In this document: piece after piece, positions 25,025-52,115 of the stretch
Layout of the letters: each line of letters starts with the position of its first letter
How positions within the stretch are numbered: position 1 is the stretch's first letter
Assembly (NCBI GenBank): GCA_030141605.1
Contig: JAQGDQ010000189.1
Span: forward strand, 291,217 to 355,216
Length of the DNA: 64,000 nt
DNA from: Tubiluchus corallicola
Lineage: Eukaryota > Priapulida > Priapulimorpha > Priapulimorphida > Tubiluchidae
Reading direction: 5' to 3'
The notes under the pieces: generated by a model
What the model was told of the DNA's origin: nothing
Database searches by the model: none
The model's input: the letters and a program-made list of their open reading frames with translations, nothing else
Translations under genes and position numbers: made by a program

Positions 25025-25555
25025 GCAAAAACGTTTCTGATAATTAAATAATAGATTAAAATCTTAATTAGCAGCGAGCAAGCTCAACTATTGATGACAT
25101 CACAAACTAACAATTTTCAGCAGCAAAAATATTCCACTAGCGTGTTCACGTGTTTACGAAAACGAAAATTAAAGCACAGAGCTACTGTAAGATGTTCAGC
25201 GTGTTGTACTAAAACTAGACAAGTTTTAAGATGGAATTTCAAATTTGCTGGTGTAATCACGTATGAGCTGTCAAACGTAAGTAGTTCGTCATAAACTAAC
25301 ACATCTGAACTGATAGGTACAGCACCTGTTTTGGTGAAACGCGTTTCCGAAAAACAGATAACAGTGAAGAACTAGTGGCGCGAACGCGAAATTGTGCTTG
25401 TGTGGTAATAATTCTTTCACATAAGTCATTTTCGAAAAAAATAGTACGTTCCCTTTCAATATTTCAAAGAGTAGATTGTTTTGACATACAGTTTAAGATT
25501 GGCTCCAATTTAGCTTTGACCTACAGTTTAAGATTGGGTCCAATTTAGCTTTAAG
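25025..25555 (+). mobile_element. Dispersed 0.5-kb repeat family, copy at left edge of the gene array
   Basis: Near-complete copy of the family described at 12640-13140, followed by a short duplication of its last 45 bp (ACAGTTTAAGATTGG twice). An inverted copy at 51620-52115 lies at the opposite edge of the cysteine-rich array. Confidence 0.85.
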
Positions 25556-25624
25556 TCTTGTGACCTCTCTAATCACAGAGCATTTTTTTTTAAATCTTGA
25601 GGCACTTGAGCTTCGTCGAATGAC

Positions 25625-26140
25625 CAAATGATGAATACACTGTGCTCTAAATATACGTTATTCTATATCACTAGGAGGCAGCACTGTAGACAATGATGAA
25701 TACACTGTGCTCTAACAATACGTTATTCTATATCACTAGGAGACAGCACTGTAGACAATGATGAACACACTGTGCTCTAACAATACGTTATTCTATATGA
25801 CTAGGAGACAGCACTGTAGACAATGAGGAATACACTGTGCTCTAATAATACATTATTCTATATCACTAGGAGACAGCACTGTAGACAACGATGAATACAC
25901 AGTGCTCTAACAATACGTTATTCTATATCACTAGGAGTCAGCACTGTAGATAATGATGAATACACTGTGCTCCCTATATCACTAGGAGACAGCACTGTGG
26001 ACAATGATGAATACACAGTGCTCTAACAATACGTTATTCTATATCACTAGGAGGCAGCACTGTAGACAATGATGAATACACAGTGCTCTAACAATATGTT
26101 ATTCTATATCACCAGGAGGCAGCACTGTAGACAATGATGT
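25625..26140 (+). repeat. 65-bp tandem repeat, about 8 copies
   Basis: Unit GTAGACAATGATGAATACAC ... CTAGGAGACAGCACT, period 65 bp. One unit is shortened by about 20 bp near 25970. Confidence 0.93.
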
Positions 26141-26224
26141 ATTTTTTAGCAAAGCATTTTTATCTTTCCTGTAACAAGGGGTAACCACTTGAACTTACAA
26201 CCTGCTCACTGCCAACTTGCTTTT

Positions 26225-26532
26225 AAAACTTTTTCTCAAACAGAATAATTGGAATCTGGAATCAACTCTCTGAGTGCCTCCTTGGTCTGTGTTCAGAGTA
26301 GCAAATCTTACCATGTAAATCTTAATAATCATTTATTTTTTAACAGGCCTGTGCAAGTAGCCTTGGCAGTTTGTGCTTTGATCACAAATCTTTTAACAAG
26401 ACACTATTTTATCTGTAAAATTTTTATTCTGTGCTGCATATACGTTTTGCCTGGTTTAATATTTTATACTAACTCGTAAATATTCTTAATATTTTTGTAA
26501 TAAAGATTACGTATTAAACTAAATTAAACTAA
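26225..26532 (+). mobile_element. LINE 3' end, copy 1
   Basis: The plus strand encodes NFFSNRIIGIWNQLSECLLG then a stop. The motif NRIIxIWNxLxE is the usual C-terminal ending of many LINE reverse-transcriptase ORFs. About 240 bp of 3' UTR follow with AATAAAG near the end. 5' truncated. The same tail recurs at 30604-30882 (+), 38949-39225 (-) and as a stub at 51583-51620 (-), always on the outer, 3' side of a cysteine-rich unit. Confidence 0.75.
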
Positions 26533-26665
26533 GGGTGTCCCATAAATCTTACGGATTGGAAATTTATCAAACTATCATGTTACTTTATTTCCATAATTCT
26601 CGTCAGCCTCATTTTATCTCTGGTATAAAAGCGAAGGAGTTTGCAATTCCTCGCATAATTAAAAT
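26533..26665 (+). repeat. GGGTGTCCC-headed repeat block, copy 1
   Basis: Begins GGGTGTCCCATAAATCTTAC directly after the LINE tail and ends near TTTGCAATTCCTCGC. Copies at 30883-31020 (+), 38820-38950 (-) and 51000-51135 (-). The GGGTGTCCC start resembles mariner-type termini, but no second terminus is seen. Confidence 0.55.
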
Positions 26666-26800
26666 ACGTTCACCCTTGTCCTAACCCTAATCCTAATCCT
26701 AACCCTATCCTTATCCCTCACCCTAATCATAACCCTATCCTTATCCCTCACCCTAATCCTAACCCTATCCTTATCTCTCACATTAATCCTAACCACGTTA
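26666..26800 (+). repeat. Degenerate telomere-like repeat (CCCTAA variants), unit A
   Basis: Runs of CCTAACCCTAATCCTAATCC mixed with CCCTATCCTTATCCCTCAC. Equivalent blocks: 31020-31115 (unit B), 38670-38815 (C), 44985-45130 (D), 50650-50995 (E). Each carries the G-rich strand in the transcriptional sense of its neighbouring gene. It is internal and degenerate, so not a chromosome end. Confidence 0.9.
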
Positions 26801-27149: not shown

Positions 27150-27375
27150 AATACTTAATTGCTTACTTGTTCATTTGTTTGTTTGTGTGCTTGGTTATTT
27201 GCTTGTTTAGTTGTTTGCTTGTAGGTTTAGTTATTTGCTTACTTGTTTAGTCGTTTGCTTGGTTAATTGGTTACTTATTAGTTCTTTGTTTATGTGGTTG
27301 GTTATCTGCTTACTTGTTTAGTTGTTTGCTTGGTTATTTGGATACTTGTTTAGTTGTTGTTTGTTCACACGCAAA
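27150..27375 (-). repeat. 3' minisatellite of gene unit A (GTTTGCTTG type)
   Basis: Imprecise tandem units of about 35-40 bp built from TTGCTTACTTGTTTAGTTGT and GTGTGCTTGGTTATTTGC on the plus strand. Equivalent arrays follow the other genes at 31600-32010, 37665-38205, 43920-44505 and 49515-50165. In some frames they encode hydrophobic Leu/Phe/Cys-rich repeats; these are by-products. Confidence 0.92.
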
Positions 27376-27540: not shown

Positions 27541-29448
27541 TTAATTAACAGGAGGATTCCGTTCCAATGTAAATAACCCATCAGGAGGAGTTTCTAAACG
27601 TACCAGCACTTTTTTCTTCTTTAGTTCTTTTTTGTATTTTTCTTGTCCTCTGTTAGGCCAACCATTCATTGGTGGATCTATAGGTGTGCAGTTGCATTTC
27701 TGAATTTGCATAAAGAGACGATAATTGTTCTGCCAGTCTTTCAAAGGGCACACGAGTACCCCGCCTGCAGGCACCGCTGAATAAAACGTGAAATTCGCAT
27801 TGTAGTGGAACACGGTGTACGACTCGCTTTCAGAACCGAATATGTCTTTTTCTGCTTCACTGTAATTCAAGTCAACAAATGAGAACTTCATTAAGGTAGG
27901 AAATGTGTTATTCCACTGCCTGCATTCTATGTCACATTTATCTCTGCACTCTGAGTCAATTCCATCTTTCAAACTGCAGTTTTTTTCGCACGTTGACTGA
28001 CAGTAGTTGTAGTCTCTAAATGGCGAATGCCGCCGACGTCGTCTGGTATGCCTTGTCTTCGGTCTTTTGCCTTTACATGTTGCAATGCATTTGATCTTGC
28101 ACACTTCTGGATCTTTAGTAGCATCACACAGATTTTCACACTCTGCAACACAATCCTCAAATGACGTAGGCATGACTGTTGTTGGTGACGTTGTTGTTGT
28201 TGTTGTCCTTGTCCTTGTCACTGAAGTCATTGTTGTTCTTTTTCGTGCTGAGGTTGTCATCGGCAGCGGAAAAGGCTGACAGTTTTCTGTGCAATTTTTT
28301 CTACATTTCCGTAATTCGCTATATTCGATATCACCAAGGCACGGACCAAAACAATAGCAGAAACAGTTATACTTTTCTCTACAAGTCTTTTTGCAATCTG
28401 GTACACACATATTCTGATTTTCCTCTGCTGCACATCGGCCTGCGCAGACAGAATCACAATATTTAATTCTGTACTGCAGGCAACCATTTATTTTCCAGCA
28501 GTTGCGTTCACTGTAAGCCTCGCGGTCCCTTTCGCATTCAGTGCGACTCAGGTCTTTTATTCTAGCACAGTTAGGTTTGTATTCACGGACGAGCTTTTTT
28601 ACACAAACACAATGAAGATTTTTACAATCATTCTTACACATCTCATTTGCATGCATGCAGTCATTTTTACACTCTTCGTTCTTACATGTTTCTATGCAGG
28701 CTTGCTCTACAATATTACACGTGCGCTCACACCTGCATCGACACTTAGCACCCTTCACATGATTGTGTAGGGCACAGTATTGTGGGCACACACTTTCACA
28801 CTCATGTCTCTTGTCCCTCCCACGACAATTACGTTTACAGGTCGCTATGCAGTCTTTATAGTATGTACAATTTCGGAGCACCAGCGGGGGGTTGTATCTT
28901 TTGACTCGTTTGGCTCGTTTTATCCTCTTTGTTGTTCTGTTTGTCCTCATATTTTGCCATTTAGGAGCTGAGCTTTTTTGATAAACAGGACTGATGTTTT
29001 CAAACACTTTTAAGCTGACTGATACAATGTCACAGCGTGCACGTTTCTCATTACTGTCAAAAATCGCTGCAAGGCAAATTCTTTTTCCAGTCGGTTTTTC
29101 TGTGGACTCCTTTATTTCGATGCCACAGTCCTTCAGTTCGTTCCACGTTACATATCTTATAGACTCTAAGTTGATTTCAGACTGCTTCATTAAGTAATGC
29201 TCGATGTAGTCTTCCTTGCAAATCGTTTCAGCTGAATCATAACCTGAGAATGTTCCTGAGTCAATTTCAAATTTTGTTTGAGAACTATTGACTGGACGAG
29301 TGAAGTTGCAAATGCTTGGCGAAGTTTGACCAGAATTGTTTGGGTAAGATATTCGAAATCCGCACGTTTCAACGAAAAATAAGACAAAGTTTAACCAGCT
29401 TAATGCACGAGATTTTGAATCGCATCTACGGGTTAGCAAAAACCACAT
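27541..29448 (-). CDS. Cysteine-rich secreted precursor, unit A (single-block, 635 aa)
   Basis: Uninterrupted frame with the start MWFLLTRR shared by paralogues B, D and E. Residues about 14-29 (ALSWLNFVLFFVETCG) are a probable signal peptide. 31-160 is a conserved N-domain with sequons. 170-184 is a basic cluster with KRIKR and KRVKR, candidate convertase sites. 190-395 is Cys-rich; 396-430 is a Thr-rich linker; 432-460 a six-Cys module; 467-475 RRRRRH; 482-510 another six-Cys module; 515-635 a C-domain (MKFSFVDL, PAGGVLVCPL, lysine-rich tail). Four modules fit C-x3-C-x3-C-x8/9-C-x3-C-x3-C. It carries only one copy of the block that is doubled in B, D and E, and EYSE replaces the CIEE/CSEE seen elsewhere, losing one Cys. 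Family unknown; extracellular role inferred. Confidence 0.88.
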   Translation of the reverse strand: MWFLLTRRCDSKSRALSWLNFVLFFVETCGFRISYPNNSGQTSPSICNFTRPVNSSQTKFEIDSGTFSGYDSAETICKEDYIEHYLMKQSEINLESIRYVTWNELKDCGIEIKESTEKPTGKRICLAAIFDSNEKRARCDIVSVSLKVFENISPVYQKSSAPKWQNMRTNRTTKRIKRAKRVKRYNPPLVLRNCTYYKDCIATCKRNCRGRDKRHECESVCPQYCALHNHVKGAKCRCRCERTCNIVEQACIETCKNEECKNDCMHANEMCKNDCKNLHCVCVKKLVREYKPNCARIKDLSRTECERDREAYSERNCWKINGCLQYRIKYCDSVCAGRCAAEENQNMCVPDCKKTCREKYNCFCYCFGPCLGDIEYSELRKCRKNCTENCQPFPLPMTTSARKRTTMTSVTRTRTTTTTTSPTTVMPTSFEDCVAECENLCDATKDPEVCKIKCIATCKGKRPKTRHTRRRRRHSPFRDYNYCQSTCEKNCSLKDGIDSECRDKCDIECRQWNNTFPTLMKFSFVDLNYSEAEKDIFGSESESYTVFHYNANFTFYSAVPAGGVLVCPLKDWQNNYRLFMQIQKCNCTPIDPPMNGWPNRGQEKYKKELKKKKVLVRLETPPDGLFTLERNPPVN

Positions 29449-29840: not shown

Positions 29841-30600
<760 letters not shown>

Positions 30601-30603: not shown

Positions 30604-31115
30604 TCCCTGAGTGCCTCCTTGGTCTGCGTTTAGAGTAGAAAACTTTTTAAAAAAACGTTTAAAAGTGTAAATCTTAATAATCATTTATCTTTTAACAGGC
30701 CTGTGCAAGTAGCCTTGGCAGTTTGTGCTTTGATCCCAAATCTTTAACAAGACACTATTTTATCTGTAAAATTTTTATTCTGTGCTGCATATACGTTTTG
30801 CCTGGTTTAATATTTTATACTAACTCGTAAATATTCTTAATATTTTTGTAATAAAGATTACGTATTAAACTAAATTAAACTAAGGGTGTCCCGTAAATCT
30901 TACGCATTGGAAATTTATCAAACTATTATGTTACTTTGTTTCCATAATTCTCGTCAGCCTCATTTTATCTCTGGTATAAAAGGGAAGGAGTTTGCAATTC
31001 CTCGTGTAATTAAAATACCTTCACCCTAATCCTAATCCTATCCTATCCTTATCCCACACCCTAACCCTAATCCTAATCCCAATCCTAGCCCTATCCTTAT
31101 CCCTCAACCTAATCC
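30604..31115 (+). mobile_element. LINE 3' end copy 2, with GGGTGTCCC block and telomere-like repeats
   Basis: Same three-part sequence as 26225-26800: LINE tail (30604-30882; ACTCCCTGAGTGCCTCCTTG onward), GGGTGTCCCGTAAATCTTAC block, then CCCTAATCC/CCCTATCCTTAT repeats to about 31115. Confidence 0.75.
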
Positions 31116-32174
31116 TCTTCACGAACTAATTTTTGCTTGTGTAGAATTGTAAACTTTAGCCCACAAATGTTTCAATATTGTATTTATTTTCTTCCACAGT
31201 TAGTGACTCTATAAACTCGAACTTAGCACTCAATGGGAGAGCCTCAATACGTGTGTGTGGCTGTACCGGAACATATGATAGCCACAGTTAGGTGTGAATA
31301 TGTCCTCTCTCTACTAGGTCAACACCCATAATGAGCACTGTGAACAAAACTGCATAGAGCAAATATCAAGTGACGATCCGTCTATTGACTAAACAGCCTA
31401 CCGTTGCTTAATTAATGTCGATAAGCAAGCACCTTGACCACTAAGCTATTCCCCTCAGACTTCTACATGCATACCAGTTACATTGAGCAGTTGAAGCACT
31501 ATGAAAGTAAAGAAAATTTATTGAAAATAATCATGTAAAGAACAAGCTAAAAATACAGTTCAGTTTCAAAAATATCTTTACAGCAAATTCATTACAACAA
31601 TATCTTTACTTGTTTATTTGTTTGTTGTATGCTTGGTTATTTGCTTACTTGTTTAGCTGTTTGTTTGTGTGCTTGGTTATTTGCTTACTTGCTTAGTTGT
31701 TTGTCGTGTGCTTGGTTATTTGCTTACTTGTTTAGGTGTTTGTTTGTGTGCTTGGCTATTTGCTTACTTGTTTAGTTGTTTGTTTGTGTGCTTGGCTATT
31801 TGCTTACTTGTTTATCTGTGTGCTTGGTGATTTGATGATCTGTTTAGTTGTTTGTTTGTGTGCTTGGTTATTTGCTTACTTGTTTAGTTGTATGCTTGTG
31901 TGCTTGGTAATTTGCTTACTTGTTTAGTTGTTTGTGTGGTTGGTTATCCACTTACTTGTTTAGTTATTTGTTTGTGTGCTTGGTTACTGTTTATTTGTCT
32001 AGTTGTTTGTTCACATGCATACCTATTTACTTGTAAGTATATTTGTTTGTCTATCACTATTCTCTACAATGGCCCAAGTCTCTGCTAATATTTCTACTAA
32101 CAACCACAAGGCCTTAACACATTAACAAATAAATATCAACAAGAATTTAAATTAAAAATAAACATAAAATCAAA
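31116..32174 (-). repeat. Unit B 3' flank: A-box-like block, minisatellite, 3' UTR
   Basis: 31190-31555 matches the conserved block with GAATAGCTTAGTGGTCAAGG. 31600-32010 is the GTTTGCTTG-type minisatellite, longer than in A. 32011-32174 is a conserved 3' UTR-like stretch. No canonical AATAAA is evident in sense orientation close to the stop. Confidence 0.7.
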
Positions 32175-35100
32175 TTAATTTACAGGAGGATTCCGTTCCA
32201 ATGTAAATAACCCCTCTAAACGTACCAACACCTTTTTCTTCTTTAGTTCTTTTTTGTATTTTCTTTGTCCTCTGTTAGGCCAACCATTCATTGGCAGATC
32301 TATAGGTTGGCAGTTGCATTTCTGAATTTGCATAAAGAGACGATAATTGTTCTGCCAGTCTTTCAAAGGGCACACGAGTACCCCGCCTGCAGGCACCGCT
32401 GAATAAAATGTGAAATTCGCATTGTAGTGGAACACGGCGTACGACTCGCTTTCAGAACCGAATATGTCCTTTTCTGCATCACTGTAATTCAAGTCAACAA
32501 ATGAGAACTTCATTAAGGTAGGAAATGTGCTATTCCACTGCCTGCATTCTATTTCACATTTATCTCTGCACTCCGAGTCAATTCCATCGTTCAAACTGCA
32601 GTTTTTTTCGCACGTTGACTGACAATAGTTGTAGTCTATAAATGGCGAATGTCGCCGATGTCGTCTGGTATGCCTTGTCTTCGGTCTTTTGCCTTTACAT
32701 GTTGCAATGCATTTGGTCTCGCACACTTCTGGATCTTTAGTAGCATCACACAAATTTTCACACTCTGCAACACAATCCTCAAATGACGTAGGCATGACTG
32801 TTGTTGGTGACGTTGTTGTCGTTGTCTTTGTCCTTGTCACTGAAGTCATCGGTGTTCTTTTTCGTGCTGAGGTTGTCGTCGGCAGCGGAAAAGGCTGACA
32901 GTTTTGTGTGCAATTTTTTCTACATTTCCGTTCTTCGCTACATTTGATATGACCGATGCACGGACCAAAACAATAGCAGAAACAGTTATATTTTTCTCTA
33001 CAAGTCTTTTTGCAATCTGGTACACACATATTCTGATGTTCCTCTGCTGCACACCGGCCTGTGCAGATAGAATCACAATATTTAATTCTGTTCTGCAAGC
33101 AACGACTTATTATCCTGCATTTGTGTTCACTGTATCTCTCGCGATCCCTTCCACATTCAGTGCGATTATTCAGGTCTTTTATTCTGGCACAGTTAGGTTT
33201 GTATTGACGGACGAGCTTTAATACACAAACACAATGAAAATTTTTACAATCATTCTTACACATCTCATTTGCATGCTTGCAGTCATTTTTACACTCTTTG
33301 TTCTTCTTACATGTTTCTATGCAGGTTTGCTCTTTAGTATTACACATGCTTTCACACCTGCATCGACACTTAGCACCCTTCACATGATTGTGCAGGGCAC
33401 AGTATTGTGGGCACACACTTTCACACTCATTTCTATTGTCCCTCCCACGACAATCGCGTTTACAGGCCGCTATGCAGTCTTTATAGTAAGTACAATTTCG
33501 GAGCACCAGCGGGGGGTTGTATTTTTTCTTGCTGGCTGGTTTGGCTGATCTTTTATGACGTCGTTTTACCCTCTTTGTCCTTGCAGTTTGCGATTTAGGA
33601 GCTGAGTTTTTCTGAGAAACAGCGCTGATACCAGCATTGTAGTGGAACACCGTGTAATCCCTTTCAAAACCGAATACATCCTTATCTGCTTCACTGTAAC
33701 TCAAGTCAACAAATGAGAACTTCATTAAGGTAGGAAATGTGTTATTCCAGTTCCTGCATTCTAGTTCACATTTATCTCTGCACTCTGAGTCAATTCTGCC
33801 TTTCTCCCAACATTTCTTCTCGCATGTTGATTGACAATTATAGTCGTAGCCACTAACTGGCAAATGTCGTCGTCGTCTGGTATGCGTTGTCTTCTCTCTG
33901 TAGGATTTACATATTGCAATGCAGCTGGTCTTGCACAGTTCTGGATCTTTAGTAGCATGACACAAACCTTCACATTGTGATACACATTTGTCAAATGACG
34001 AAGACGTGACTGTTGTAGGTGATGTTGTCGTTGTTTTTGTCCTTGTCATTGAAGTCATCGTTGTTATTTCTGGTGCTGAAGTTGTCGCCGGCAGCGGAAA
34101 AGGCTGACAGTTTTGTGTGCAATTGTTTCTACATTTCCGTTCTTCGATACATGGGATATCACCAAGGCACGGACCAAAACAATAGCAGAAACATTCATAT
34201 TTTTCTCTACAAATCTTTTTGCAATCTGGTACACACATATTCTGATTTTCCTCTGCTGCACATCGGCCTGCGCAGATAGAATCACAATATTTAATTCTGT
34301 TCTGCAAGCAACGACTTATTATCCTGCATTTGCGCTCACTGTATCTCTCGCGATCCCTTTCGCATTCAGTGCGATTATTCAGGTCTTTTATTCTAGCACA
34401 GTTAGGTTTGTATTCATGGATGAGCTTTAATATACAAACACAATGAAGATTTGTACAATCATTCTTACACATCTCATTTGCATGCTTGCAGTCATTTTTA
34501 CAATCTTCGTTCTTACATGTTTCTATGCAGGTTTGCTCTACATTATTACACATATGCTCACATGTGCATCGACACTTAGCACCCTTCACATGATTGTGTA
34601 GGGCACAGGCTTGTGGGCACACACTTTCACACTCATTTCTGTTGTCCCTCCCACGACAATTACGTTTACAGGTCGCTATGCAGTCTTTATAGTAAGTACA
34701 ATTTCGGAGCACCAGTGGGGGGTTGTATTTTTTGGCTCGTTCGGCTCGTTTTATCCTCTTTGTTGTTCTGTTTGTCCTCATATTTTGCCATTTAGGAGCT
34801 GAGCTTTTTTGATGAACAGGACTGATGTTTTCAAACACTTTTAAGCTGACTGATACAATGTCACAGCGCACTCGTTTCTCGTTATTGTAGAAAATCGCTG
34901 CAAGGCAAATTCTTTTTCCAGGCAGTTTTTCTGTGGACTCCTTTATTTCGATGCCACAGTCCTTCAGTTCGTTCCACGTTACATATCTTATAGACTCTAA
35001 GTTGATTTCAGACTGCTTCATTAAGTAATGCTCGATGTAGTCTTCCTTGCAAATCGTTTCAGCTGAATCATAACCTGAGAATGTTCCTGTGTCAATTTCA

Positions 35101-35279
35101 AATTTTGTTTGAGAACTATTGACTGGACGAGTGAAGTCGCAAACGCTTGGCGAAGTTTGACCAGAATTGTTTGGGTAGGATATTCGAAATCCGCATGTTT
35201 CAACAACAAATAAGGCAAAGTTTAACCAGCTTAATGCACAAGATTTAGAATCACATCTATGGGTTAGCAAAAACCACAT
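32175..35279 (-). CDS. Cysteine-rich secreted precursor, unit B (double-block, 1034 aa)
   Basis: Intact frame. 1-160 signal peptide plus N-domain; basic cluster at about 174-184 (KRIKRAERAKK). First mature block about 185-549: Cys-rich region, Thr-rich linker near 400-426, two six-Cys modules, RRRRH, and a C-domain cut short after HYNA. A second basic spacer 566-586 (KRVKRRHKRSAKPASKKK) is followed by a second full block 587-1034 ending in the complete C-domain. The blocks are offset by about 402 residues and both start NPPLVLRNCTYYKDC. Eight modules fit C-x3-C-x3-C-x8/9-C-x3-C-x3-C. Near the C-terminus four residues present in A and E (TPPD/TPPE) are missing. Predicted secreted, many disulfides, multiple possible cleavage products. 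Not matched to a known family. Confidence 0.88.
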   Translation of the reverse strand: MWFLLTHRCDSKSCALSWLNFALFVVETCGFRISYPNNSGQTSPSVCDFTRPVNSSQTKFEIDTGTFSGYDSAETICKEDYIEHYLMKQSEINLESIRYVTWNELKDCGIEIKESTEKLPGKRICLAAIFYNNEKRVRCDIVSVSLKVFENISPVHQKSSAPKWQNMRTNRTTKRIKRAERAKKYNPPLVLRNCTYYKDCIATCKRNCRGRDNRNECESVCPQACALHNHVKGAKCRCTCEHMCNNVEQTCIETCKNEDCKNDCKHANEMCKNDCTNLHCVCILKLIHEYKPNCARIKDLNNRTECERDRERYSERKCRIISRCLQNRIKYCDSICAGRCAAEENQNMCVPDCKKICREKYECFCYCFGPCLGDIPCIEERKCRNNCTQNCQPFPLPATTSAPEITTMTSMTRTKTTTTSPTTVTSSSFDKCVSQCEGLCHATKDPELCKTSCIAICKSYREKTTHTRRRRHLPVSGYDYNCQSTCEKKCWEKGRIDSECRDKCELECRNWNNTFPTLMKFSFVDLSYSEADKDVFGFERDYTVFHYNAGISAVSQKNSAPKSQTARTKRVKRRHKRSAKPASKKKYNPPLVLRNCTYYKDCIAACKRDCRGRDNRNECESVCPQYCALHNHVKGAKCRCRCESMCNTKEQTCIETCKKNKECKNDCKHANEMCKNDCKNFHCVCVLKLVRQYKPNCARIKDLNNRTECGRDRERYSEHKCRIISRCLQNRIKYCDSICTGRCAAEEHQNMCVPDCKKTCREKYNCFCYCFGPCIGHIKCSEERKCRKNCTQNCQPFPLPTTTSARKRTPMTSVTRTKTTTTTSPTTVMPTSFEDCVAECENLCDATKDPEVCETKCIATCKGKRPKTRHTRRHRRHSPFIDYNYCQSTCEKNCSLNDGIDSECRDKCEIECRQWNSTFPTLMKFSFVDLNYSDAEKDIFGSESESYAVFHYNANFTFYSAVPAGGVLVCPLKDWQNNYRLFMQIQKCNCQPIDLPMNGWPNRGQRKYKKELKKKKVLVRLEGLFTLERNPPVN

Positions 35280-43400: not shown

Positions 43401-43675
43401 CCTTAATGAAGTTCTCATTTGTTGACTTGAGTTACAGTGAAGCAGAAAAGGACGTATTCGGTTCTGAAAGCGAGTCGTACACCGTGTTCCACTACAATGC
43501 GAATTTCACGTTTTATTCAGCGGTGCCTGCAGGCGGGGTACTCGTGTGCCCTTTGAAAGACTGGCAGAACAATTATCGTCTCTTTATGCAAATTCAGAAA
43601 TGCAACTGCACACCTATAGATCCTGCAATGAATGGTAGGCCTAACAGAGGACAAAAAAATACAAAAAAGAACTAA
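40433..43675 (+). CDS. Cysteine-rich secreted precursor, unit D (double-block, extra module, 1080 aa)
   Basis: Start MWFLLTRRHDSKSRAL as in paralogues, with signal-like 14-29. First block about 188-620, basic spacer KRVKRRHKRSAKPA near 641-655, second block to the end. In the first block the Thr-rich linker plus six-Cys module is itself duplicated (SAPEITTMTAVKVNKD near 406 and SAPEIIAMTAVKVNKD near 474), giving nine six-Cys modules in all. The first basic cluster is partly changed to KPVKPAKK. Relative to A, B and E the A-run at about 43652 is one base shorter, so the frame shifts and ends at NTKKN, losing the conserved Lys-rich C-terminus; the lost coding sequence remains in another frame to about 43757. 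Whether it still makes a functional product is unknown. Confidence 0.85.
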   Translation: MWFLLTRRHDSKSRALCWLNFVLFFVETCGFRISYPNNSGQTSPSVCNFTRPVNSTQTKFEIDTGTFSGYDSAETICKEDYVEHYLMKQSEINLESIRHVTWNELKDCGIEIKESTEKPTGKRICLAAIFDSNEKRARCDIVSVSLKVFENISPVYQKSSAPKWQNMRTNRTTKRIKRAKPVKPAKKHNPPLVLRNCTYYKDCIATCKRNCSGRENRDECESVCPQECALHNHVKGAKCRCTCEHKCNNVEQTCIEICTTNEECKNDCKHANEVCKNDCKNLHCVCVLKLVREYELNCASITDENNRTECERDRERYSERNCRKINRCLQNRIKYCDSICTGRCAAEENQNMCVPDCKKTCREKYNCFCYCVGPCTDHIKCIEERKCKKNCRENCQPFPVPTTTSAPEITTMTAVKVNKDTRIKTTTTTVTTTSPTTVTPTPVDECVSQCEGLCHATKDPELCKTNCIAKCKSSAPEIIAMTAVKVNKDNRIKTTTSPASVEDCAPQCEGLCDATKDPELCKTNCIEKCKSYKEKTTRTRRRRHLPVRDYDYNCQSTCEKKCWEKGRIDSECRDKCELECRNWNNTFPTLMKFSFVDLSYNEAEKDIFGFERDYTMFHYNASISAVSQKNSAPISQTARTKRVKRRHKRSAKPANNKKYNPPLVLRNCTYYKDCIATCKRNCSGKENRNECESLCPQECALHNHEMGAKCRCRCEGKCNTKEQTCIEICQTNEECKNDCKHANEMCKNDCKNLHCFCVLKLVREYKPNCPGINDRIECERDRERYSERNCGKISHCLQHRIIYCDSICAGRCAAEENQNMCVPDCKKICREKYECFCYCFGPCLNDIPCSEERKCRKNCTQNCQPFPLPTTTSARKRALMTSVTRTRTTTTTSPTTVTPTSFEDCVAECENLCDATKDPEVCETNCIATCKGKRLKTRHTRRHRRHSPFIDYNYCQSTCERNCSLKDGIDSECRDKCDIECRRWNNTFPTLMKFSFVDLSYSEAEKDVFGSESESYTVFHYNANFTFYSAVPAGGVLVCPLKDWQNNYRLFMQIQKCNCTPIDPAMNGRPNRGQKNTKKN

Positions 43676-45130
43676 AGAAGAAAAAAGTGCTGGTACGTTT
43701 AGAAACTCCTCCTGAGGGGTTATTTACATTGGAACGGAATCCTCCTGTTAATTAATTTGATTTGATGTTTATTTTTAATTTAAATTCTTGTTGATATTTA
43801 TTTGTTAATGTCTCACAGACCTATTACGGGCCTTGTGGTTGTTATTAGAAAAATTAGCAGAGACTTAGGCCATTGTAGAGAATAGTGATAGACAGACAAA
43901 TATACTTACAAGTAAATAGGTTTGCATGTGAACAAACAACAACTAAGCAAATAAACAGTAACCAAGCACACAAACAAACAACTAAACAAGTAGGCAGATA
44001 ACCAACCACATAAACAAAGAACTAACAACTAAAAAATTAACCAAGCAAACGACTAAACAAGTAAGCAAATAACTAAACCTACAAGCAAACAACTAAACTA
44101 GTAAGCAAATAACCAAGCACACAAACAAACAAATGAACAAATAAGCAATTAACCAAGCACACAAACAAACAACTAGACAAGTAAGCAACTAAATAAGCAC
44201 ACAATAAATAAATAAACAAGTAAGCAAATAGCCAAGCACACAAACAAACAACTAAACAAGTAAGCAAATAACCAAGCACAAACAAACTACCAACTAAACA
44301 AATAAGCAAATAACCAAGCACACTAACAAACAACTAAACAAATAAGCAAATAACCAAGCACACGACAAACAACTAAGCAAGTAAGCAAATAACCAAGCAC
44401 ACAAACAAACAACTAAACAAGTAAGCTAATAACCAAGCACACAAATAAACAAGTAAGCAAATAACCAAGCACATGCAAACTGACAAACAAATAAACAAGT
44501 AAAGATATTGTTGTAATGAATTTGCTGTAAAGATATTTTTGAAACTGAACTGTATTTTTTGCTTGTTCTTTGCATGATTATTTTCAATAAACTTTCTTTA
44601 CTTTCATATTGCTTCAACTGCTCCATGTAACTGGTATGCATGTAGAAGTCTGAGGTGAATAGCTTAGTGGTCAAGGTGCTTGCTTATCGACCTTAGTTAA
44701 GCAACGGTAGGCTGTTTAGTCAATAGACGGATCATCACTTGATATTTGCTCTAGTTCACGGTGCTCATTATGGGTGTTGACCTCGTAGAGAGAGGACATA
44801 TTCACACCTAACTGTGGCTATCACATGTTCCGGTACAGCCACACACACGTATTGAGGCTCTACCATTGAGTGCTAAGTTCGAGTTTATAGAGTCACTCAC
44901 TATGGAAGAAAATGAATGCAATATTGAAACATTTGTGGGCTAAAGTTTACAATTCTACACAAACAAAAAATTAGTTCGTGAAGCGGATTAGGGTGAGGGA
45001 TAAGGATAGGGCTAGTATTAGGGTTAGGATTAGGGTGAGGCATAGGGATAGGGTTAGGATTAGGATGAGGCATAGGGATAGGGTTAGGATTAGGGTGAGG
45101 GATAAGGATAGGTTTAGGATTAGGATACCT
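43676..45130 (+). repeat. Unit D 3' flank: former C-terminus, UTR, minisatellite, A-box-like block, telomere-like repeats
   Basis: 43676-43757 is the out-of-frame remainder of the coding region. Then 3' UTR-like, minisatellite 43920-44505, conserved block 44560-44905 with GAATAGCTTAGTGGTCAAGG, TTAGGG-like repeats 44985-45130. The GGGTGTCCC block and LINE tail found in A, B and C are absent; telomere-like DNA runs straight into the next unit. Confidence 0.85.
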
Positions 45131-45139: not shown

Positions 45140-45798
45140 TAGATACGCGAACATCCTACATAGTCTTCACTTATAATGCAAAGCCAGCAGCAGCAGTTGA
45201 ATTAAAGTTAAAAGGTTATAGGCAGAGTAAAATGGATTGCGTCAGAACAATGGCTTTGCATCAGCAGTTTTCCAAGGGAAAATTGCCAAAAATAGAACAT
45301 CTAATTAACTCGTCGGCACTCCTCTTGGTTGAGGTGTCCTATAACATAGCCCACACCATCGTGCAGCCCTGTTCCTCCTCTTTCTAAAGAGCTATATATC
45401 TTCTTCCGAGAGTCTCAGCAGGCGGCCCTAGAACATTTTTTCTGCAGGCTGTTTGGCCAAAATTTTGAAAAAATGGCGAGTTGGGTCCGGGAAAACGCCC
45501 GTTACAGGACGCCGTGGCCCTCTCGCAAATTCTAAATACACCTATGACATTCGCCATTGAACGGGCTATCTATCCATGGCCAGCACCATCCATGGCCTGT
45601 TCCCGTTCTTCAGACGTATAAATTTTGCAAAAAACGGCCGAAAAATGGCCATTTTTGGAGGTTTTTCGCCCCCGTTCCACCTGGTAGGCCTGATTCGAAA
45701 AATAAACCCCCAACGGCACGACACTAGATCGAGACCTTTCATTTGACGTATCGATCGCCGCAAATGGTGCCGCCGTCGAAGCTGTAGCCTCGAATCTT
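45140..45798 (+). repeat. Dispersed 5' repeat block upstream of unit E
   Basis: Copy of the block at 29951-30600 with a single arm of the 39901-40014 palindrome at about 45735-45790. Confidence 0.8.
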
Positions 45799-45804: not shown

Positions 45805-46209
45805 ATATATATATGTATAACATACCAGCGAAATTAATATATACGATTAAGTGATAAAAGATTTTTAGTCAGAACCGTAGTTACTGAATCATATAAGAAA
45901 TTAGTTCAAGCTTAAGAGACAATAGGTTCTTTTGAACCAAGACCAGGACAATTCAGTAAGCATGACAAGCCTGGGAACTTCCTGCAGACAATGAAGACGG
46001 TTTTAGCATTGTCTTCAAATTTAATTCCATGACAAAATCAGTTCCACAATAATTCTAACTACTCTGTACTGGGGTAACCACCGTAAAAAGAGAAAAACTT
46101 GTGGTATTATGAATTCAGAATTCCACAGTCTGTAAAGCCGCTAAAAGACAGCAGATGGTGATTTGATACTTTTATGGCTACATATTGTTGTGCAACATCT
46201 CATGCAATA
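45805..46209 (+). promoter_or_regulatory. Conserved 5' flank of unit E
   Basis: Homologous to the flanks of A, B and D. The TATA-like site reads GTATTATGAATTC as in B. A substitution creates an in-frame ATG at 46174 (A has ACG, D has AAG at that place), which would add 12 residues (MATYCCATSHAI) to the protein. Confidence 0.45.
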
Positions 46210-49200
46210 ATGTGGTTTTTGCTAACCCGTAGACACGATTCTAAATCTCGTGCATTATGCTGGTTAAACTTTGTCTTATTTTTCGTTGAAACGTGCGGAT
46301 TTCGAATATCCTACCCAAACAATTCTGGTCAAACTTCGCCAAGCGTTTGTAACTTCACTCGTCCAGTCAATAGTTCTCAAACAAAGTTTGAAATTGACAC
46401 AGGAACATTCTCAGGTTATGATTCAGCTGAAACGATTTGCAAGGAAGACTACATCGAGCATTACTTAATGAAACAGTCTGAAATCAACTTAGAGTCTATA
46501 AGATATGTAACGTGGAACGAACTGAAGGACTGTGGCATCGAAATAAAGGATTCCACAGAAAAACCGACTGGAAAAAGAATTTGCCTTGCAGCGATTTTTG
46601 ACAATAATGAGAAACGTGCACGCTGTGACATTGTATCAGTCAGCTTAAAAGTGTTTGAAAACATCAGTCCTGTTTATCAGAAAAGCTCAGCTCCTAAATG
46701 GCAATATATGAGGACAAACAGAATAACAAAGAGGATAAAACGAGCCAAAAAATACAACCCCCCGCTGGTGCTTTATTGTACATACTATAAAGACTGCATA
46801 GCGACCTGTAAACGTAATTGTAGTGGGAGGGAGAATAGAAATGAGTGTGAAAGTGTGTGCCCGCAAGAATGTGCCAGACACAATCATGAGATGGGTGCTA
46901 AGTGTCGATGCAAGTGTGAGCATACGTGTAATACTAAAGAGCAAACCTGCATAGAAATATGTAAGACAAACGAAGAGTGTAAAAATGACTGCAAGCATGC
47001 AAATGAGGTGTGTAAGAATGATTGTAAAAATCTTCATTGTGTTTGTGTAAAAAAGCTCGTCCGTGAATACGAACCTAACTGTGCTAGTATAACAGACGAG
47101 AATAATCGCACTGAATGCGAAAGGGATCGCGAGAGATACAGTGAACACAAATGCAGGATAATAAGTCGTTGCTTGCATAACAGAATTAAACATTGTGATT
47201 CTATCTGCACAGGCCGGTGTGCAGCAGAGGAAAATCAGAATATGTGTGTACCAGATTGCAAAAAGACTTGTAGAGAAAAACATGAATGTTTCTGCTATTG
47301 TGTTGATCAGTGCATCGGCTATATCAAATGTATCGAAGAACGGAAATGTAGAAAAAATTGCAGAGAAAGCTGTCAGCCTCTTCCGCTGCCGACGACAACC
47401 TCAGCACCAGAAATAACAACGAATACTTCAGTGACAAGGACAAAAACAACAACAACAACTGTGATAACAACATCACCTACAACAGTCACGCCTACATCAG
47501 TTGACGAATGTGTATCAGAATGTGAAAGTTTGTGTGATGCTACTATAGATCCAGAACTGTGCAAGACCAAATGCGTTGCAATATGTAAAGCCAAAATACC
47601 TAAGACAACGCATACCAGACGACGTCGGCGGCATTCGCCATTTAGAGACTACAACTATTGTCAATCAACATGCGAGAAGAAATGTTGGGAGAAAGGCAGG
47701 ATTGACTCAGAGTGCAGAGATAAATGTGAAATAGAATGCAGGAACTGGAATAACACATTTCCTACTTTAATGAAGTTCTCATTTGTTGACTTGAGTTACA
47801 GTGAAGCAGAAAAGGACATATTCGGTTTTGAAAGGGATTACACGATGTTCCACTACAATGTTAGCATCAGCGCTGTTTCTCGGAAAAACTCAGCTCCTAA
47901 ATCGCAAACTGCAAGGACAAAGAGGGTAAAACGACGTCATAAAAGATCAGCCAAACCAGCCAACAACAAAAAATACAACCCCCCGCTGGTGCTCCGAAAT
48001 TGTACTTACTATAAAGACTGCATAGCGGCCTGTAAACGTAATTGTAGTGGGAGGGAGAATAAAAACGAGTGTGAAAGTGTGTGCCCGCAAGAATGTGCCC
48101 TACACAATCATGAGATGGGTGCTAAGTGTCGATGCAGGTGTGAGCGCAAGTGTAATACTAAACAGCAAGCCTGCATAGAAATATGTAAGACAAACGAAGA
48201 GTGTAAAAATGACTGCAAGCATGCAAATGAGGTGTGTAAGAATGATTGTAAAAATCTTCATTGTGTTTGTGTATTAAAGCTCGTGCGTGAATACAAACCT
48301 AACTGTCCTAGTATAACAGACGAGAATAATCGCACTGAATGCGAAAGGGATCGCGAGAGATACAGTGAGCGCAACTGCGGGAAAATAAGTCGTTGCTTGC
48401 AGCACAGAATTAAATATTGTGATTCTATCTGCGCAGGCCGGTGTGCAGCAGAGGAAAATCAGAATATGTGTGTACCAGATTGCAAAAAGACTTGTAGAGA
48501 AAAACATGAATGTTTCTGCTATTGTTTTGGTCCGTGCCTCAATGATATCCCATGTAGCGAAGAACGGAAATGTAGAAAAAATTGCACACAACACTGTCAG
48601 CCTTTTCCGCTGCCGGTGACAACCTCAGCACCAGAAATAACAACGATGACTTCAATGACAAGGACAAAAACAACAACAACAACTGTGACAACAACATCAC
48701 CTACAACAGTCACACCTACGTCAGTTGACGAATGTGTATCAGAATGTGAAAGTTTGTGTGATGCTACTATAGATCCAGAACTGTGCAAGACCAAATGCGT
48801 TGCAATATGTAAAGCCAAAATACCGAAGACAACGCATACCAGACGACGTCGGCGGCATTCGCCATTTAGAGACTACAACTATTGTCAGTCAACGTGCGAA
48901 AAAAACTGCAGTTTAAAAGATGGAATTGACTCAGAGTGTAGAGATAAATGTGACATAGAATGCAGGCAGTGGAATAACACATTTCCTACCTTAATGAAAT
49001 TCTCATTTGTTGACTTGAATTACAGTGATGCAGAAAAGGACGTATTCGGTTCTGAAAGCGATTCGTACACCGTGTTCCACTACAATGCGAATTTCACGTT
49101 TTATTCAGCGGTGCCTGCAGGCGGGGTACTCGTGTGCCCTTTGAAAGACTGGCAGGACAATTATCGTCTCGTTATGCAAATTCAGAAATGCAACTGCACA

Positions 49201-49344
49201 CCTATAGATCCACCAATGAATGGTTGGCCTAACAGAGGACAAGAAAAATACAAAAAAGAACTAAAGAAGAAAAAAGTCCTGGTACATTTAGAAACTCCTC
49301 CCGAGGGGTTATTTACATTGGAACAGAATCCTCCTGTTAATTAA
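46210..49344 (+). CDS. Cysteine-rich secreted precursor, unit E (double-block)
   Basis: I place the start at the MWFLLTRR methionine conserved in all paralogues (1044 aa); an in-frame upstream ATG at 46174 would give 1056 aa. Probable signal peptide, N-domain, basic cluster (KRIKRAKK), then two mature blocks separated by KRVKRRHKRSAKPANNKK. Each block holds four six-Cys modules, a Thr-rich linker (TTTTTVITTSPTTVTPTS type), RRRRRH and FSFVDL; only the second has the complete C-domain (PAGGVLVCPLKDWQDNY, Lys-rich tail, NPPVN end). In block one the usual LVLRNCTYY is LVLYCTYY, removing a sequon. The frame is fully intact, consistent with an active gene. Function unknown; extracellular, disulfide-rich, probably cleaved. 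Confidence 0.88.
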   Translation: MWFLLTRRHDSKSRALCWLNFVLFFVETCGFRISYPNNSGQTSPSVCNFTRPVNSSQTKFEIDTGTFSGYDSAETICKEDYIEHYLMKQSEINLESIRYVTWNELKDCGIEIKDSTEKPTGKRICLAAIFDNNEKRARCDIVSVSLKVFENISPVYQKSSAPKWQYMRTNRITKRIKRAKKYNPPLVLYCTYYKDCIATCKRNCSGRENRNECESVCPQECARHNHEMGAKCRCKCEHTCNTKEQTCIEICKTNEECKNDCKHANEVCKNDCKNLHCVCVKKLVREYEPNCASITDENNRTECERDRERYSEHKCRIISRCLHNRIKHCDSICTGRCAAEENQNMCVPDCKKTCREKHECFCYCVDQCIGYIKCIEERKCRKNCRESCQPLPLPTTTSAPEITTNTSVTRTKTTTTTVITTSPTTVTPTSVDECVSECESLCDATIDPELCKTKCVAICKAKIPKTTHTRRRRRHSPFRDYNYCQSTCEKKCWEKGRIDSECRDKCEIECRNWNNTFPTLMKFSFVDLSYSEAEKDIFGFERDYTMFHYNVSISAVSRKNSAPKSQTARTKRVKRRHKRSAKPANNKKYNPPLVLRNCTYYKDCIAACKRNCSGRENKNECESVCPQECALHNHEMGAKCRCRCERKCNTKQQACIEICKTNEECKNDCKHANEVCKNDCKNLHCVCVLKLVREYKPNCPSITDENNRTECERDRERYSERNCGKISRCLQHRIKYCDSICAGRCAAEENQNMCVPDCKKTCREKHECFCYCFGPCLNDIPCSEERKCRKNCTQHCQPFPLPVTTSAPEITTMTSMTRTKTTTTTVTTTSPTTVTPTSVDECVSECESLCDATIDPELCKTKCVAICKAKIPKTTHTRRRRRHSPFRDYNYCQSTCEKNCSLKDGIDSECRDKCDIECRQWNNTFPTLMKFSFVDLNYSDAEKDVFGSESDSYTVFHYNANFTFYSAVPAGGVLVCPLKDWQDNYRLVMQIQKCNCTPIDPPMNGWPNRGQEKYKKELKKKKVLVHLETPPEGLFTLEQNPPVN

Positions 49345-50995
49345 TTTGATTTGATGTTTATTTTTAATTTAAATTCTTGTTGATATTTATTTGTTAATGT
49401 GTTACAGACCTATTACGGGCCTTGTGGTTGTTAGTAGAAAAATTAGCAGAGACTTAGGCCATTGTAGAAAATAGTGATAGACAAACAAATATACTTACAA
49501 GTAAATAGGTATTCATGTGAACAAACAACAACTAAACAAATAAACAGTAACCAAGCACACAAACAAACAACTAAACAAGTAGGCAGATAACCAACCACAT
49601 AAACAAAGAACTAACAAGTAACCAATTAACCAAGCAAACAACTAAACAAGTAAGCAAATAACCAAGCACACAAACAAACAAATGAACAAGTAAGCAATTA
49701 ACCAAGCATACAAACAAACAACTAGACAAGTAAGCAAATAACCAAGCTCAAAATAAATAAATAAACAAGTAAAGCAAATAACCAAGCACATGACAAACAA
49801 ATAAACAAGTAAGCAAATAACCAAGCACACAAGCAAACAACTAAACAAGTAAGCAAATTACCAAGCACACAAGCATACAACTAAACAAGTAAGTAAATAG
49901 CCAAGCACACTAACAAACAGCTAAACAGGTAAGCAATTTACCAAGCACACAAATAAACAAGTAAGCAAATAACCAAGCACACAAGCAAACAAATAAACAA
50001 GTAAGCAAATAACCAAGCACACAAGCAAACAAATAAACAAGTAAGCAAATAGCCAAGCACACAAGCAAACAAATAAACAAGTAAGCAAATAGCCAAGCAC
50101 ACAAGCAAACAACTAAACAAGTAAGCAAATAACGAAGCACACAACAAACAAATAAACAAGTAAAGATATTGTTGTAATGAATTTGCTGTAAAGATATTTT
50201 TGCAACTGAACTGTATTTTTTGCTTGTTCTCTGTATGATTAGTTTCAATAAATTTTCTTTACTTTCATAGTGCTTCAACTGCTCCATGTAACTGGTATGC
50301 GTGTAGAAGTCTGAGGTGAATAGCTTAGTGGTCAAGGTGCTTGCTTATCGACCTTAATTAAGCAACGGTAGGCTGTTTAGTCAAGAGACAGATGATCACT
50401 TGATATTTGCTCTATGCAGTTTTGTTCACGGTGCTCATTATGGGTGTTGACCTCGTACAGGGAGGACATATTCACACCTAACTGTAGCTATGACACGTCC
50501 TGGTACTGCCACAGACGTATTGAGGCTCTACCATTGAGTGCTAAGTTCGAGTTTATAGAGAATCACTAACTATGGAAGAAAATAAATACAATATTGAAAA
50601 ATTTGTGGGCTAAAGTTTACAATTCTACACAAACAAAAAATTAGTGCCTGAAGCGGATTCGGGTGAGGGATAAGGATGGGGTTAGTATTAGGATTAGGGT
50701 GAGGGATAAGGATAGGGTTAGGATTAGGGTGAGGGATAAGGATAGGATTAGGGTTGGGATTAGGGTGAGGGATAAGGATAGGGTTACAATTAGGATTAGG
50801 GTGAAGGTTAAGGATAGGATAGGGTTAGGATTAGGATTAGGGTGAGGGATAAGGATAGGGTTAGCATTAGGGTGAGGGATAAGGATAGGGTTAGGATTAG
50901 GATTAGGATGAGGATAAGGATAGGGTTAGGATTAGCATTAGGATAGGGTTAGGATTAGGGTGAGGGATAAGGATAGGGTTAGGATTAGGGTGAAG
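49345..50995 (+). repeat. Unit E 3' flank: UTR, minisatellite, A-box-like block, telomere-like repeats
   Basis: 3' UTR-like to about 49510, minisatellite 49515-50165 (longest of the five), conserved block 50200-50575, then the longest telomere-like block, 50650-50995, with many GGTTAGGATTAGGGTGAGGG units. Confidence 0.88.
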
Positions 50996-51129
50996 GTATT
51001 TTAATTACGCGAGGAATTGCAAACTCCTTCCCTTTTATACCAGAGATAAAATGAGGCTGACGAGAATTATGGAAATAAAGTAACATAATAGTTTGATATA
51101 TTTCCAATGCATAATATTTACGGGACACC

Positions 51130-51580
51130 CTTAGTTTAATGTGGCTGAGCAATCCGATCCTTGAACCGGATTGAACTGGAGCGGCTTCTCCAGGGCGCAC
51201 GCCTGGGCAAGGTGTATGGAGATAAAGAGTTGCCCAGATAACAGAGAACCCCCTGTATTCCTCCCTGGTGTAGTCCAAAGGAAAGTGATACGTTTGGCAC
51301 CAGGTTGGCTGCAGGAGTTGCCGTAGTCAGTGAGCATGCTGCGCTGGTCCGCCTTCGGGGCTCCACTCCTGATTTGGAAGGTTAACTCCTCTACACATGG
51401 CTGTTGGGTCACTTGACCTCCTCCGCCCTCTAGCCGTGGGCTCCTTGTGCAGCGCCTCCGCCTAGTGGTGAGATACAGTGTGGGCACCCGCAAGCCTACA
51501 GCACCTGGTATTCCTAGGCGGTCATCCATCCAAGTACTAACCAGGCTCTACGTTGCTTAACTTCAGTGTCCAGACGATAT
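51130..51580 (-). mobile_element. 5S-rRNA-derived retroposon (SINE3-like), inserted in LINE tail
   Basis: The minus strand starts near 51578 with the 3' two-thirds of a 5S rRNA: AAGTTAAGCAACG, GCCTGGTTAGTACTTGGATG, GACCGCC, and CAGGTGCTGTAGGCTTG. The upstream 40 or so bases of 5S are missing. A GC-rich body of about 360 bp follows, with no long frame I trust. It sits between the GGGTGTCCC block (51000-51135) and a stub of the array's LINE tail (51583-51620), so it disrupted that tail. SINEs with 5S heads are known in several animal groups. Not a functional 5S gene. Confidence 0.75.
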
Positions 51581-51619
51581 ATATTATAAAATATTAAACC
51601 AGGCAAAACGTATTTGCAG

Positions 51620-52115
51620 CGTGTATTAGGTCAAAACAATCTACTCTTTGAAATATTGAAAGAGAACGCACTATCTTTTCAAAAAGAACTTATGTGAAAG
51701 AATTATTACCACACAAACACAATTTCATGTTCGCGCCACTAGTTCTTCCCTCTTATTTGTATTTCGGAAATGCGTTTCACCAAAACAGGTGCTGTACCTT
51801 ACAGTTCAGATGTGTTAATTTATGACAAACTACTTATGTTCGACAGCTCATACGTGATCACAGCGGCAAATTTGAAATTTGAAATTCCATCTTAAAACTT
51901 GTCTAGTTTTGTTAGTACAACGTGCTGAATATTTTACAGTTGCATTGTATTTCATTTTTTGCTTTCGCAAACACGTGCAACACGCCCGAGGAATATTTTT
52001 GCTGTTGAAAATTGTTAGTTTGTGATGTCATCAATAGTTGAGCTCGCTCGCCGTTAATGAAGATTTTAATTATCAGAAACGTTTTTGCAGTATTAATTGT
52101 GTTAAAATGTATTAA
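51620..52115 (-). mobile_element. Dispersed 0.5-kb repeat family, inverted copy at right edge of the gene array
   Basis: Reverse complement of the family at 12640-13140 and 25025-25555 (e.g. GAAAGAATTATTACCACACA, TACCTTACAGTTCAGATGTG, CATCTTAAAACTTG). 52120-52750 shows only a 28-bp duplication (GGTCATTATTCAGGACAATG twice, about 52600-52650). Confidence 0.85.

Follow-up and report, generated by a model that had tools for sequence, protein, structure and literature searches.

Evidence for a family of disulfide-rich modular precursors with repeated six-cysteine hairpin units in Tubiluchus corallicola

The 6C alpha-hairpinin core, CX3CX3CX4-20CX3CX3C, is described from plants, where it occurs in multi-hairpin precursors, and a modular precursor is typical of antimicrobial peptides in animals, too (PMC11591084). 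In the ascidian Synoicum turgens, turgencins A and B show the ladder pairing C1-C6, C2-C5, C3-C4 (PMC7024374), and the octocoral peptides U-GRTX-Esi20/21 are helical-hairpin toxins encoded by intronless, duplicated genes (PMC11896702). An alpha-hairpinin-like peptide has been reported from amphioxus. The mCRP-I precursors of Mytilus combine a conserved signal and pro-region with a fast-evolving mature part and copy-number change (PMC10138031). Here we describe an array of five related gene copies in a 64,000-nucleotide stretch of Tubiluchus corallicola DNA (C1720:291217-355216, referred to as the window) from a 343.5-Mb genome comprising 2344 contigs. It is highly probable that the copies belong to a real family of disulfide-rich modular precursors in which hairpin units are inserted between two conserved cores, and the released modules may act as effectors.

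Array copies and their hairpin units

The original prediction had described three intact frames of 635, 1034 and 1044-1056 amino acids (aa), one frameshifted frame of 1080 aa and one broken copy, with A and B on the minus strand and C, D and E on the plus strand, diverging from approximately 36.5 kb. Open reading frame coordinates and self-comparison confirmed these frames, and the orientation was as described, with the divergence point at approximately 36.4-36.6 kb. The copies are the following.

27541-29448, minus strand: copy A, intact single-exon coding sequence (CDS), 635 aa, one module, 4 hairpins
32175-35279, minus strand: copy B, intact single-exon CDS, 1034 aa, two modules, 8 hairpins
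36687-37449, plus strand: copy C, remnant without the 5' half, with a frame shift in the last hairpin and a deletion in the C-terminal region
40433-43675, plus strand: copy D, 1080 aa, two modules, 9 hairpins; a frame shift near the 3' end shortens the C-terminus
46174-49344, plus strand: copy E, intact CDS, 1056 aa (1044 aa from the shared start), two modules, 8 hairpins

The hairpin unit CX3CX3CX8-9CX3CX3C was found 29 times in A, B, D and E (4, 8, 9 and 8 units, respectively) and not once in 2000 shuffles of each of the four mature regions. When the seven modules were aligned, 48 of 49 cysteine columns were invariant. The motif CxCxCx3C was present twice in every module, the number of cysteines per module was 48, 49 or 55 (14 in half-module 2 of A), and no adjacent cysteines were found in A, B, D or E. 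The single exception among the cysteine columns is Tyr 376 of A (28321-28323); A is the copy with one module, and this loss leaves it with an even cysteine total. Since the modules share the published 6C spacing, the cysteine modules noted earlier can be refined to a repeated hairpin unit. The signal-like segment and basic clusters noted with them were supported as well, by hydropathy and by furin-type motifs, respectively. The hydrophobicity peak (11-residue window) starts at residue 16 in A, B, D and E, and from its hydropathy the N-terminal segment would direct the proteins to the secretory pathway; furin-type sites lie at the domain borders in all four. Thr-rich linkers and many N-glycosylation motifs were also present. 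The parts of A, with those of B and D that differ in module content, are listed below.

28897-29448, minus strand: A residues 1-184, signal-like segment, N-terminal core and basic cluster RIKR/RAKR/RVKR
within 28897-29448, minus strand: N-terminal core of A, 5 cysteines after residue 30
28774-28851, minus strand: A hairpin 1, residues 200-225
28381-28458, minus strand: A hairpin 2, residues 331-356, followed by CxCxCx3C
28075-28152, minus strand: A hairpin 3, residues 433-458, preceded by a Thr-rich linker
27922-28002, minus strand: A hairpin 4, residues 483-509, preceded by an RRRRR cluster
27544-27897, minus strand: A C-terminal region, residues 518-635, holding the three-cysteine C-terminal core found across the family
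34428-34706, minus strand: B module 1, first half, hairpin 1 and CxCxCx3C
33219-33500, minus strand: B module 2, first half
41930-42025, plus strand: D extra hairpin, an internal duplication within module 1

Cleavage at the furin-type sites is predicted to yield an N-terminal fragment of 148-154 aa with 5 cysteines, module fragments of 289-303 aa (365 aa for module 1 of D) with a net charge of +11 to +31 including the basic ends and 42 (A), 43 or 49 (D module 1) cysteines, a middle piece of 105-106 aa with one 6-Cys hairpin in B, D and E, and a C-terminal fragment with nine cysteines. The fragments thus mostly carry odd numbers, whereas the whole mature chains carry even numbers of 56, 106, 112 and 106 in A, B, D and E, respectively. 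The idea that the odd fragments form intermolecular bonds was weakened by the even whole-chain totals in most frames. One hypothesis for the pairing would join the N-terminal core (5 cysteines) to the C-terminal piece (9) and the two modules to each other (43+43 or 49+43); in one-module A, the odd cysteine would be the one that was lost.

When the module was modelled with AlphaFold2 from seven paralogous rows, all four hairpins of A were returned as two helices around a loop (model residues 16-41, 147-172, 249-274 and 299-325), with predicted local distance difference test scores (pLDDT) mostly of 55-79 in ten-residue blocks of the hairpins and 41-52 at the edges. A profile of 15 isolated hairpins searched against the PDB at E<=10 matched a vicilin-like peptide (E 0.12) and kappa-KTx 1.2 (E 0.24), and acrorhagin-1 was not among these two matches. 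The kappa-KTx peptides are helix/helix (PMC11722136), so the matches, although not significant, have the expected shape. Each hairpin is probably a helix-loop-helix according to these models.

The array copies share with the plant 6C alpha-hairpinins the core spacing (loops of 8-9 in all 29 units of the four frames) and the presence of several hairpins per precursor, and a helix-loop-helix like theirs is predicted with moderate confidence for the four hairpins of A. They differ in that the family is animal, its fragments carry 42-49 cysteines, and extra CxCxCx3C motifs and furin-type sites are present; the account of alpha-hairpinins allows fewer than three extra cysteines (PMC11591084), while the hairpin-bearing fragments hold 9, 42, 43 or 49 and exactly one 6-Cys hairpin occurs only in the middle tails of B, D and E. 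Moreover, the two-part core of the family had no Pfam or PDB match, and no homology to the plant peptides was detected. The turgencins are likewise animal and cationic, with six cysteines of which none are adjacent, but they are 35-36 aa long and in one of them the helix is populated rather than stable (PMC7024374); they are likened here by description. U-GRTX-Esi20/21 and the sea-anemone acrorhagin-1 are also disulfide-stabilised helical hairpins, but short single-hairpin toxins (PMC11896702). Mytilus mCRP-I resembles the family in its several cysteine arrays per precursor, dibasic cleavage and conserved-precursor/variable-mature pattern, but its arrays are knottins with adjacent cysteines (PMC10138031), which A, B, D and E do not have. 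SCREPs are secreted and, like the precursors here, built of repeated Cys-rich domains (PMC6262176); that label was given to a protein without inter-domain cleavage sites (PMC11896702), in contrast to the basic sites between modules found here. The likeness of the family to the 6C alpha-hairpinins, turgencins, octocoral toxins or amphioxus peptide falls short of demonstrated homology.

Genome-wide relatives and selection on cores and modules

With A as query, 87 matches on 26 contigs were found in the same genome at E<=0.001, a number that is a lower bound and in which near-identical pairs may be alleles (e.g., two copies on C1059, 99% identical). Identities to A ranged from 100% to approximately 32%, and many places carried stops. 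The five-copy gene family proposed for the window is therefore real but not isolated. The core-only member L029 matched 55 places in this genome. Thirty-three stretches were fetched, and 29 of them were scanned jointly with the window for core segments, yielding 27 N-terminal and 38 C-terminal segments, of which 19 and 22, respectively, were used to build core profiles. The N-terminal core has seven cysteine columns, with an occupancy of 15/16 to 19/19 rows except for one column of 16/19, and the C-terminal core has three (19/22, 22/22 and 20/20). The array copies are without two of the seven N-terminal core cysteines, one position being a gap and the other Tyr, which would fit the loss of one disulfide.

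The number of hairpins varied widely. Hairpins are absent from frames L028 (317 aa), L029 and L030 (355 aa), which consist of the two cores and are candidates for the ancestral form of the family. At the other extreme, a single open frame of 2315 aa (C1877:37923-44867, minus strand) holds 282 cysteines and, with loops of 7-11 allowed, 25 hairpins, compared to a mean of 0.002 in 500 shuffles; its L034 portion contains a module of approximately 160 aa repeated six times. On another contig, a frame of 2752 aa includes the C-terminal core. These two giant frames each contain 14% Thr. Many open frames were present across divergent subfamilies. The existence of core-only members together with a 25-hairpin giant indicates that the modules are insertions between the two cores and that the array, as judged from these comparisons, is one subfamily of a scattered genome-wide family. 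The 2315-aa frame (L034, L038) also has an extra N-terminal region resembling the starts of frames on C1166.

The original prediction had matched the genes to no named family, and this held in the profile searches, with no match above the cut-off in Pfam and none significant in NCBIfam or the PDB. Pfam was searched with 10 family frames, the best match being DUF3439 (E 0.00033, 21 bits versus a cut-off of 27.1); NCBIfam gave a single match at E 3. Against the PDB, the N-terminal core profile matched nothing at E<=10, the C-terminal core profile gave one match (E 3.3) and six modules of the giant member gave two (E 2.1 and 6.4). In a protein collection that may hold few animals, none of the 1103 candidates for A reached E<=0.001, and no match was obtained at E<=10 with the A/B/D/E alignment (1507 candidates) or the C-terminal region of A (23 candidates). 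Two peptide patterns recovered 91 stretches from viral contigs and 67 from prokaryote genomes, none of which was confirmed. A literature search returned no description of the family, which is no proof of absence. An IL-18 match to the N-terminal region (5 chains, E 0.67-0.84) disappeared with the four-copy profile, and matches to ELMO, DUF1885, mambaquaretin and HapC were set aside as chance.

Selection was assessed by counting distinct nonsynonymous (N) and synonymous (S) changes, with ratios expressed as N/S relative to a neutral model whose kappa of 2.75 was measured from the flanks. Copy C was left out of all codon counts and D out of the C-terminal count of the window; alignment columns filled in fewer than half of the copies were dropped, and Thr-rich stretches were masked for three further sets of relatives. 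In the window, the N-terminal region showed 27 N and 20 S changes (0.48 of neutral, P 0.012), the C-terminal region of A, B and E 14 N and 10 S (0.50, P 0.075) and the module cysteines 1 N and 5 S (0.05, P 0.002), with one cysteine loss seen compared to 28.2 expected in simulations. Modules and N-terminal region differed (Fisher P 0.012). Pooled pairwise ratios of nonsynonymous to synonymous divergence (dN/dS) were 0.33 for the N-terminal region, 0.71 for the modules, 0.52 for the C-terminal region (D included) and 0.85 for the linkers.

In the set L010/L017/L025, the ratio was 1.12 in the non-Cys middle part (22:7) and 0.54 in the C-terminal core, with cysteines at 0:2. The set L018/L019/L020/L021/L023 gave 0.64 in the N-terminal region, 1.63 in the non-Cys middle part (118:26, P 0.012) and 0.31 in the C-terminal core (P 0.005), with cysteines at 0:7, and the set L009/L011 gave 0.40, 1.53 (165:38, P 0.009) and 0.56, respectively, with cysteines at 0:6. 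After columns near gaps were masked, the middle-part ratios of the three sets were 1.12, 1.48 (P 0.043) and 1.54 (P 0.014), and combined with the window the excess had a P of 0.012 at kappa 2.75. Over the four sets, module cysteines showed 1 nonsynonymous and 20 synonymous changes. These findings solidly show that the module cysteines are frozen, and the cores are likely constrained; diversification of the module surfaces is suggested, not proven.

The original prediction had taken the preservation of long frames as a sign of selection. Because the non-Cys residues of the modules change at least as fast as the neutral expectation, this holds for the N-terminal region, the C-terminal core and the cysteines, that is, for scaffold and core, and not for the other module residues. 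Part of the preservation is explained by recent duplication, since the 5' flanks (the 400 bp preceding each of A, B, D and E) are 92-97% identical. No stops were found in the window frames compared to 9.8 expected, a result that is biased because open copies were chosen, and changes are not fully independent because copies exchange sequence. In the nucleotide alignment of the four frames, gaps were mostly multiples of three, and those of 8, 46, 80, 1189 and 1 base are taken for misplacement around the missing module and the short end of D.

Duplication units and surroundings of the array

Self-comparison resolved tandem and inverted duplication units over approximately 26265-51140, each of approximately 4-6 kb except for unit C, of approximately 2.6 kb. 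A dispersed repeat lies upstream in units A, B, D and E, and a 40-bp minisatellite and a telomere-like repeat lie downstream in all five. The limits of 25025 and 52115 first given for the array were found to correspond instead to inverted copies of a dispersed repeat.

30166-30591: dispersed repeat, upstream end of unit A; similar repeats at 35979-36370, 39283-39675 and 45143-45503
31605-32011: 40-bp minisatellite 3' of B; equivalents at 27155-27362, 37667-38196, 43932-44502 and 49521-50163
44985-45126: telomere-like repeat at the downstream end of unit D; equivalents at 26679-26794, 31017-31116, 38667-38811 and 50655-50989
25001-25517, plus strand: dispersed repeat left of the array; inverted copy at 51627-52112, further copy at 12647-13145, partial copy at 21769-21928

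The upstream repeat of the units also occurs alone, outside the array, at 431-871. The four copies of the repeat that borders the array are 81-88% identical, and two of them flank it in inverted orientation. A reading of the array as one giant element with inverted ends was rejected, since the same repeat is present at 12.6 kb and partly at 21.8 kb and the flanking pair is a boundary coincidence.

The 5' flanks differ by 0.031-0.083 and the 3' flanks of A, B and E by 0.038-0.105, which is below or close to the divergence of synonymous sites (pooled dS of 0.099 in the N-terminal region and 0.133 in the modules). Unlike the coding parts, the 5' flanks group A together with D and B together with E, and they diverge less than module synonymous sites; gene conversion and a conserved promoter are candidate readings of this.

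At the left end of the window, exons of a SASH/SLY-type adaptor (1-2830, minus strand) read away from the array. They comprise a SAM domain at 1-258 (minus strand; PF07647, E 4.7e-6, above the cut-off), an SH3 part at 1277-1498 (minus strand; best solved match SASH1, E 1.2e-9) and an upstream SH3 part near 2823 (minus strand), located with a sequence motif. Adaptor genes of this type belong to animals. The array may lie upstream of this gene or inside one of its introns. A 5S rRNA-like sequence (51493-51604, minus strand; Rfam 41.6 bits, cut-off 38) adjoins the dispersed repeat and is perhaps a 5S-derived short interspersed element. A head-to-tail duplication of approximately 550 bp (3089-3640 and 3639-4190, 99.1% identical) is either very recent or an assembly artefact. 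A 28-bp minisatellite of approximately 57 copies occupies 58612-60206, with a GC skew of -0.46 over 58001-60000. Two further minus-strand frames, of 530 aa with 93-bp repeats (13826-15418) and of 366 aa (54716-55816), had no family match above the cut-off.

Proposed function and its alternatives

We propose, with a probability of roughly 0.48, that the large family consists of secreted modular precursors whose modules are host-defence or venom-type effectors. This reading is drawn from the combination of a frozen scaffold with a surface that is either free or diversifying, a pattern known from mussel CRP-I (PMC10138031); cysteines fixed while the remainder changes fast would be as in some defence and venom peptides. 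The signal segment would lead the protein into the secretory pathway. The two terminal cores, which are common to members with and without modules, would fold together, probably joined by a disulfide because each has an odd number of cysteines and together they have an even number. Between them would stand zero to 25 predicted helix-loop-helix hairpins, each held, by analogy with the turgencins, by three rung-like disulfides, C1-C6, C2-C5 and C3-C4. Furin-type proteases would then cut the polybasic clusters and free the modules, singly in A and perhaps as a cross-linked pair in B, D and E (42 versus 43+43 or 49+43 cysteines). The armoured modules would work extracellularly on targets that change, of which microbes, prey or other organisms are the most likely, the scaffold remaining frozen while the surface diversifies and the number of hairpins shifts by module gain and loss. 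More tentatively, and with rather lower confidence, the family could be a new class of animal effectors with 0-25 hairpins on a two-part core, furin release, surfaces under positive selection and adjustable valency, in which the hairpin evolved independently.

Several results weigh against the effector reading. In the window, the non-Cys module codons showed 178 N and 56 S changes (1.15 of neutral, P 0.20), so that an excess is not shown there; in the set L010/L017/L025 the excess had a P of 0.49 and the N-terminal region was neutral (1.00), and the combined nonsynonymous excess depended on kappa, with P rising to 0.30 at kappa 1 and falling to 0.002 at kappa 4. Cysteine parity was not universal, 17 frames being even and 4 odd among 21 that are relatives and not independent, for which no P value is claimed; the odd ones are L026 and L027 (17/19 even in the first count) and, later, L031 and C1877. 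The predicted fragments, of approximately 34 kDa (41 in D), are larger than known hairpin peptides. The module model was weak (mean pLDDT 49.5; 36.6-40.3 in the other four models), that of the N-terminal region was useless (31.5), and fold searches with the models gave no match at E<=0.001. Finally, the giant Thr-rich members look mucin-like and would also fit a structural role.

That role is the main rival, in which the proteins would be structural, mucin-like or adhesive extracellular components of a coat, capsule, egg envelope or glue. The Thr-rich linkers found throughout, the Thr content of the two giant frames and the many N-glycosylation motifs agree with it, but the furin-type sites would cut the chain, and a non-Cys module change above neutral, significant in two of four sets, is more than is expected of a scaffold. 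We consider it unlikely, at about one chance in five. Still less probable are gamete or seminal recognition proteins under diversifying change, which would equally show a fixed scaffold, a fast surface and copy-number change, but nothing in the anatomy points to gametes.

Two named families appear very improbable. TIL-type protease inhibitors (PF01826) were suggested by sub-threshold matches in three of four proteins (best whole protein 17.6 bits, isolated hairpin 21.7 bits, cut-off 24.5); among 15 third and fourth hairpins taken singly, 11 matched (best E 0.00033). Decoys were of two kinds, a first set of which 10 of 14 were used (all 7 keeping the cysteine positions and 3 of 7 full shuffles) and a second set of 10 in which only the cysteine positions were kept. 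Eight of the latter 10 matched TIL at E<=0.1 (best 0.0042), and a TIL domain has ten cysteines whereas the unit here has six. For vanabin-type metal-binding proteins (Vanabin-2, PF11437), three of seven half-modules (best E 0.047, 14.3 bits versus a cut-off of 25) and one of 15 short hairpins (E 0.0052) matched, and none of the 20 decoys did. These matches are nevertheless below the cut-off and are read as noise because one decoy reached E 0.0022 for another family; 10 further family frames and 6 modules gave no match at E<=1, and vanabins have 18 conserved cysteines in nine disulfides (PMC9486056) whereas half-module 2 of A has 14 and whole modules 48, 49 or 55. The decoys taken alone would be compatible with a faint likeness. 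The short hairpins also matched C_tripleX (13/15), Ole e 6 (7/15; best E 0.0021, no better than the decoy at 0.0022 and thus at noise level) and GASA/snakin (PF02704; 3/15, best E 0.12).

That the copies are decaying duplicates without a role is barely credible: the damage in C and D, the stops in many of the genome copies and flanks as conserved as the genes speak for it, but cysteines are frozen in four sets, cores are constrained in most, and many frames remain open across divergent subfamilies.

If the modules are effectors as proposed, the family would add a candidate effector class, of which no described relative was found in the collections searched here. Most known 6C helical hairpins come from defence peptides of plants and short toxins of animals. 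An animal family that strings together up to 25 such units, with core-only relatives still present, would offer a view of how a disulfide scaffold is multiplied and of the limits within which its surface may change.

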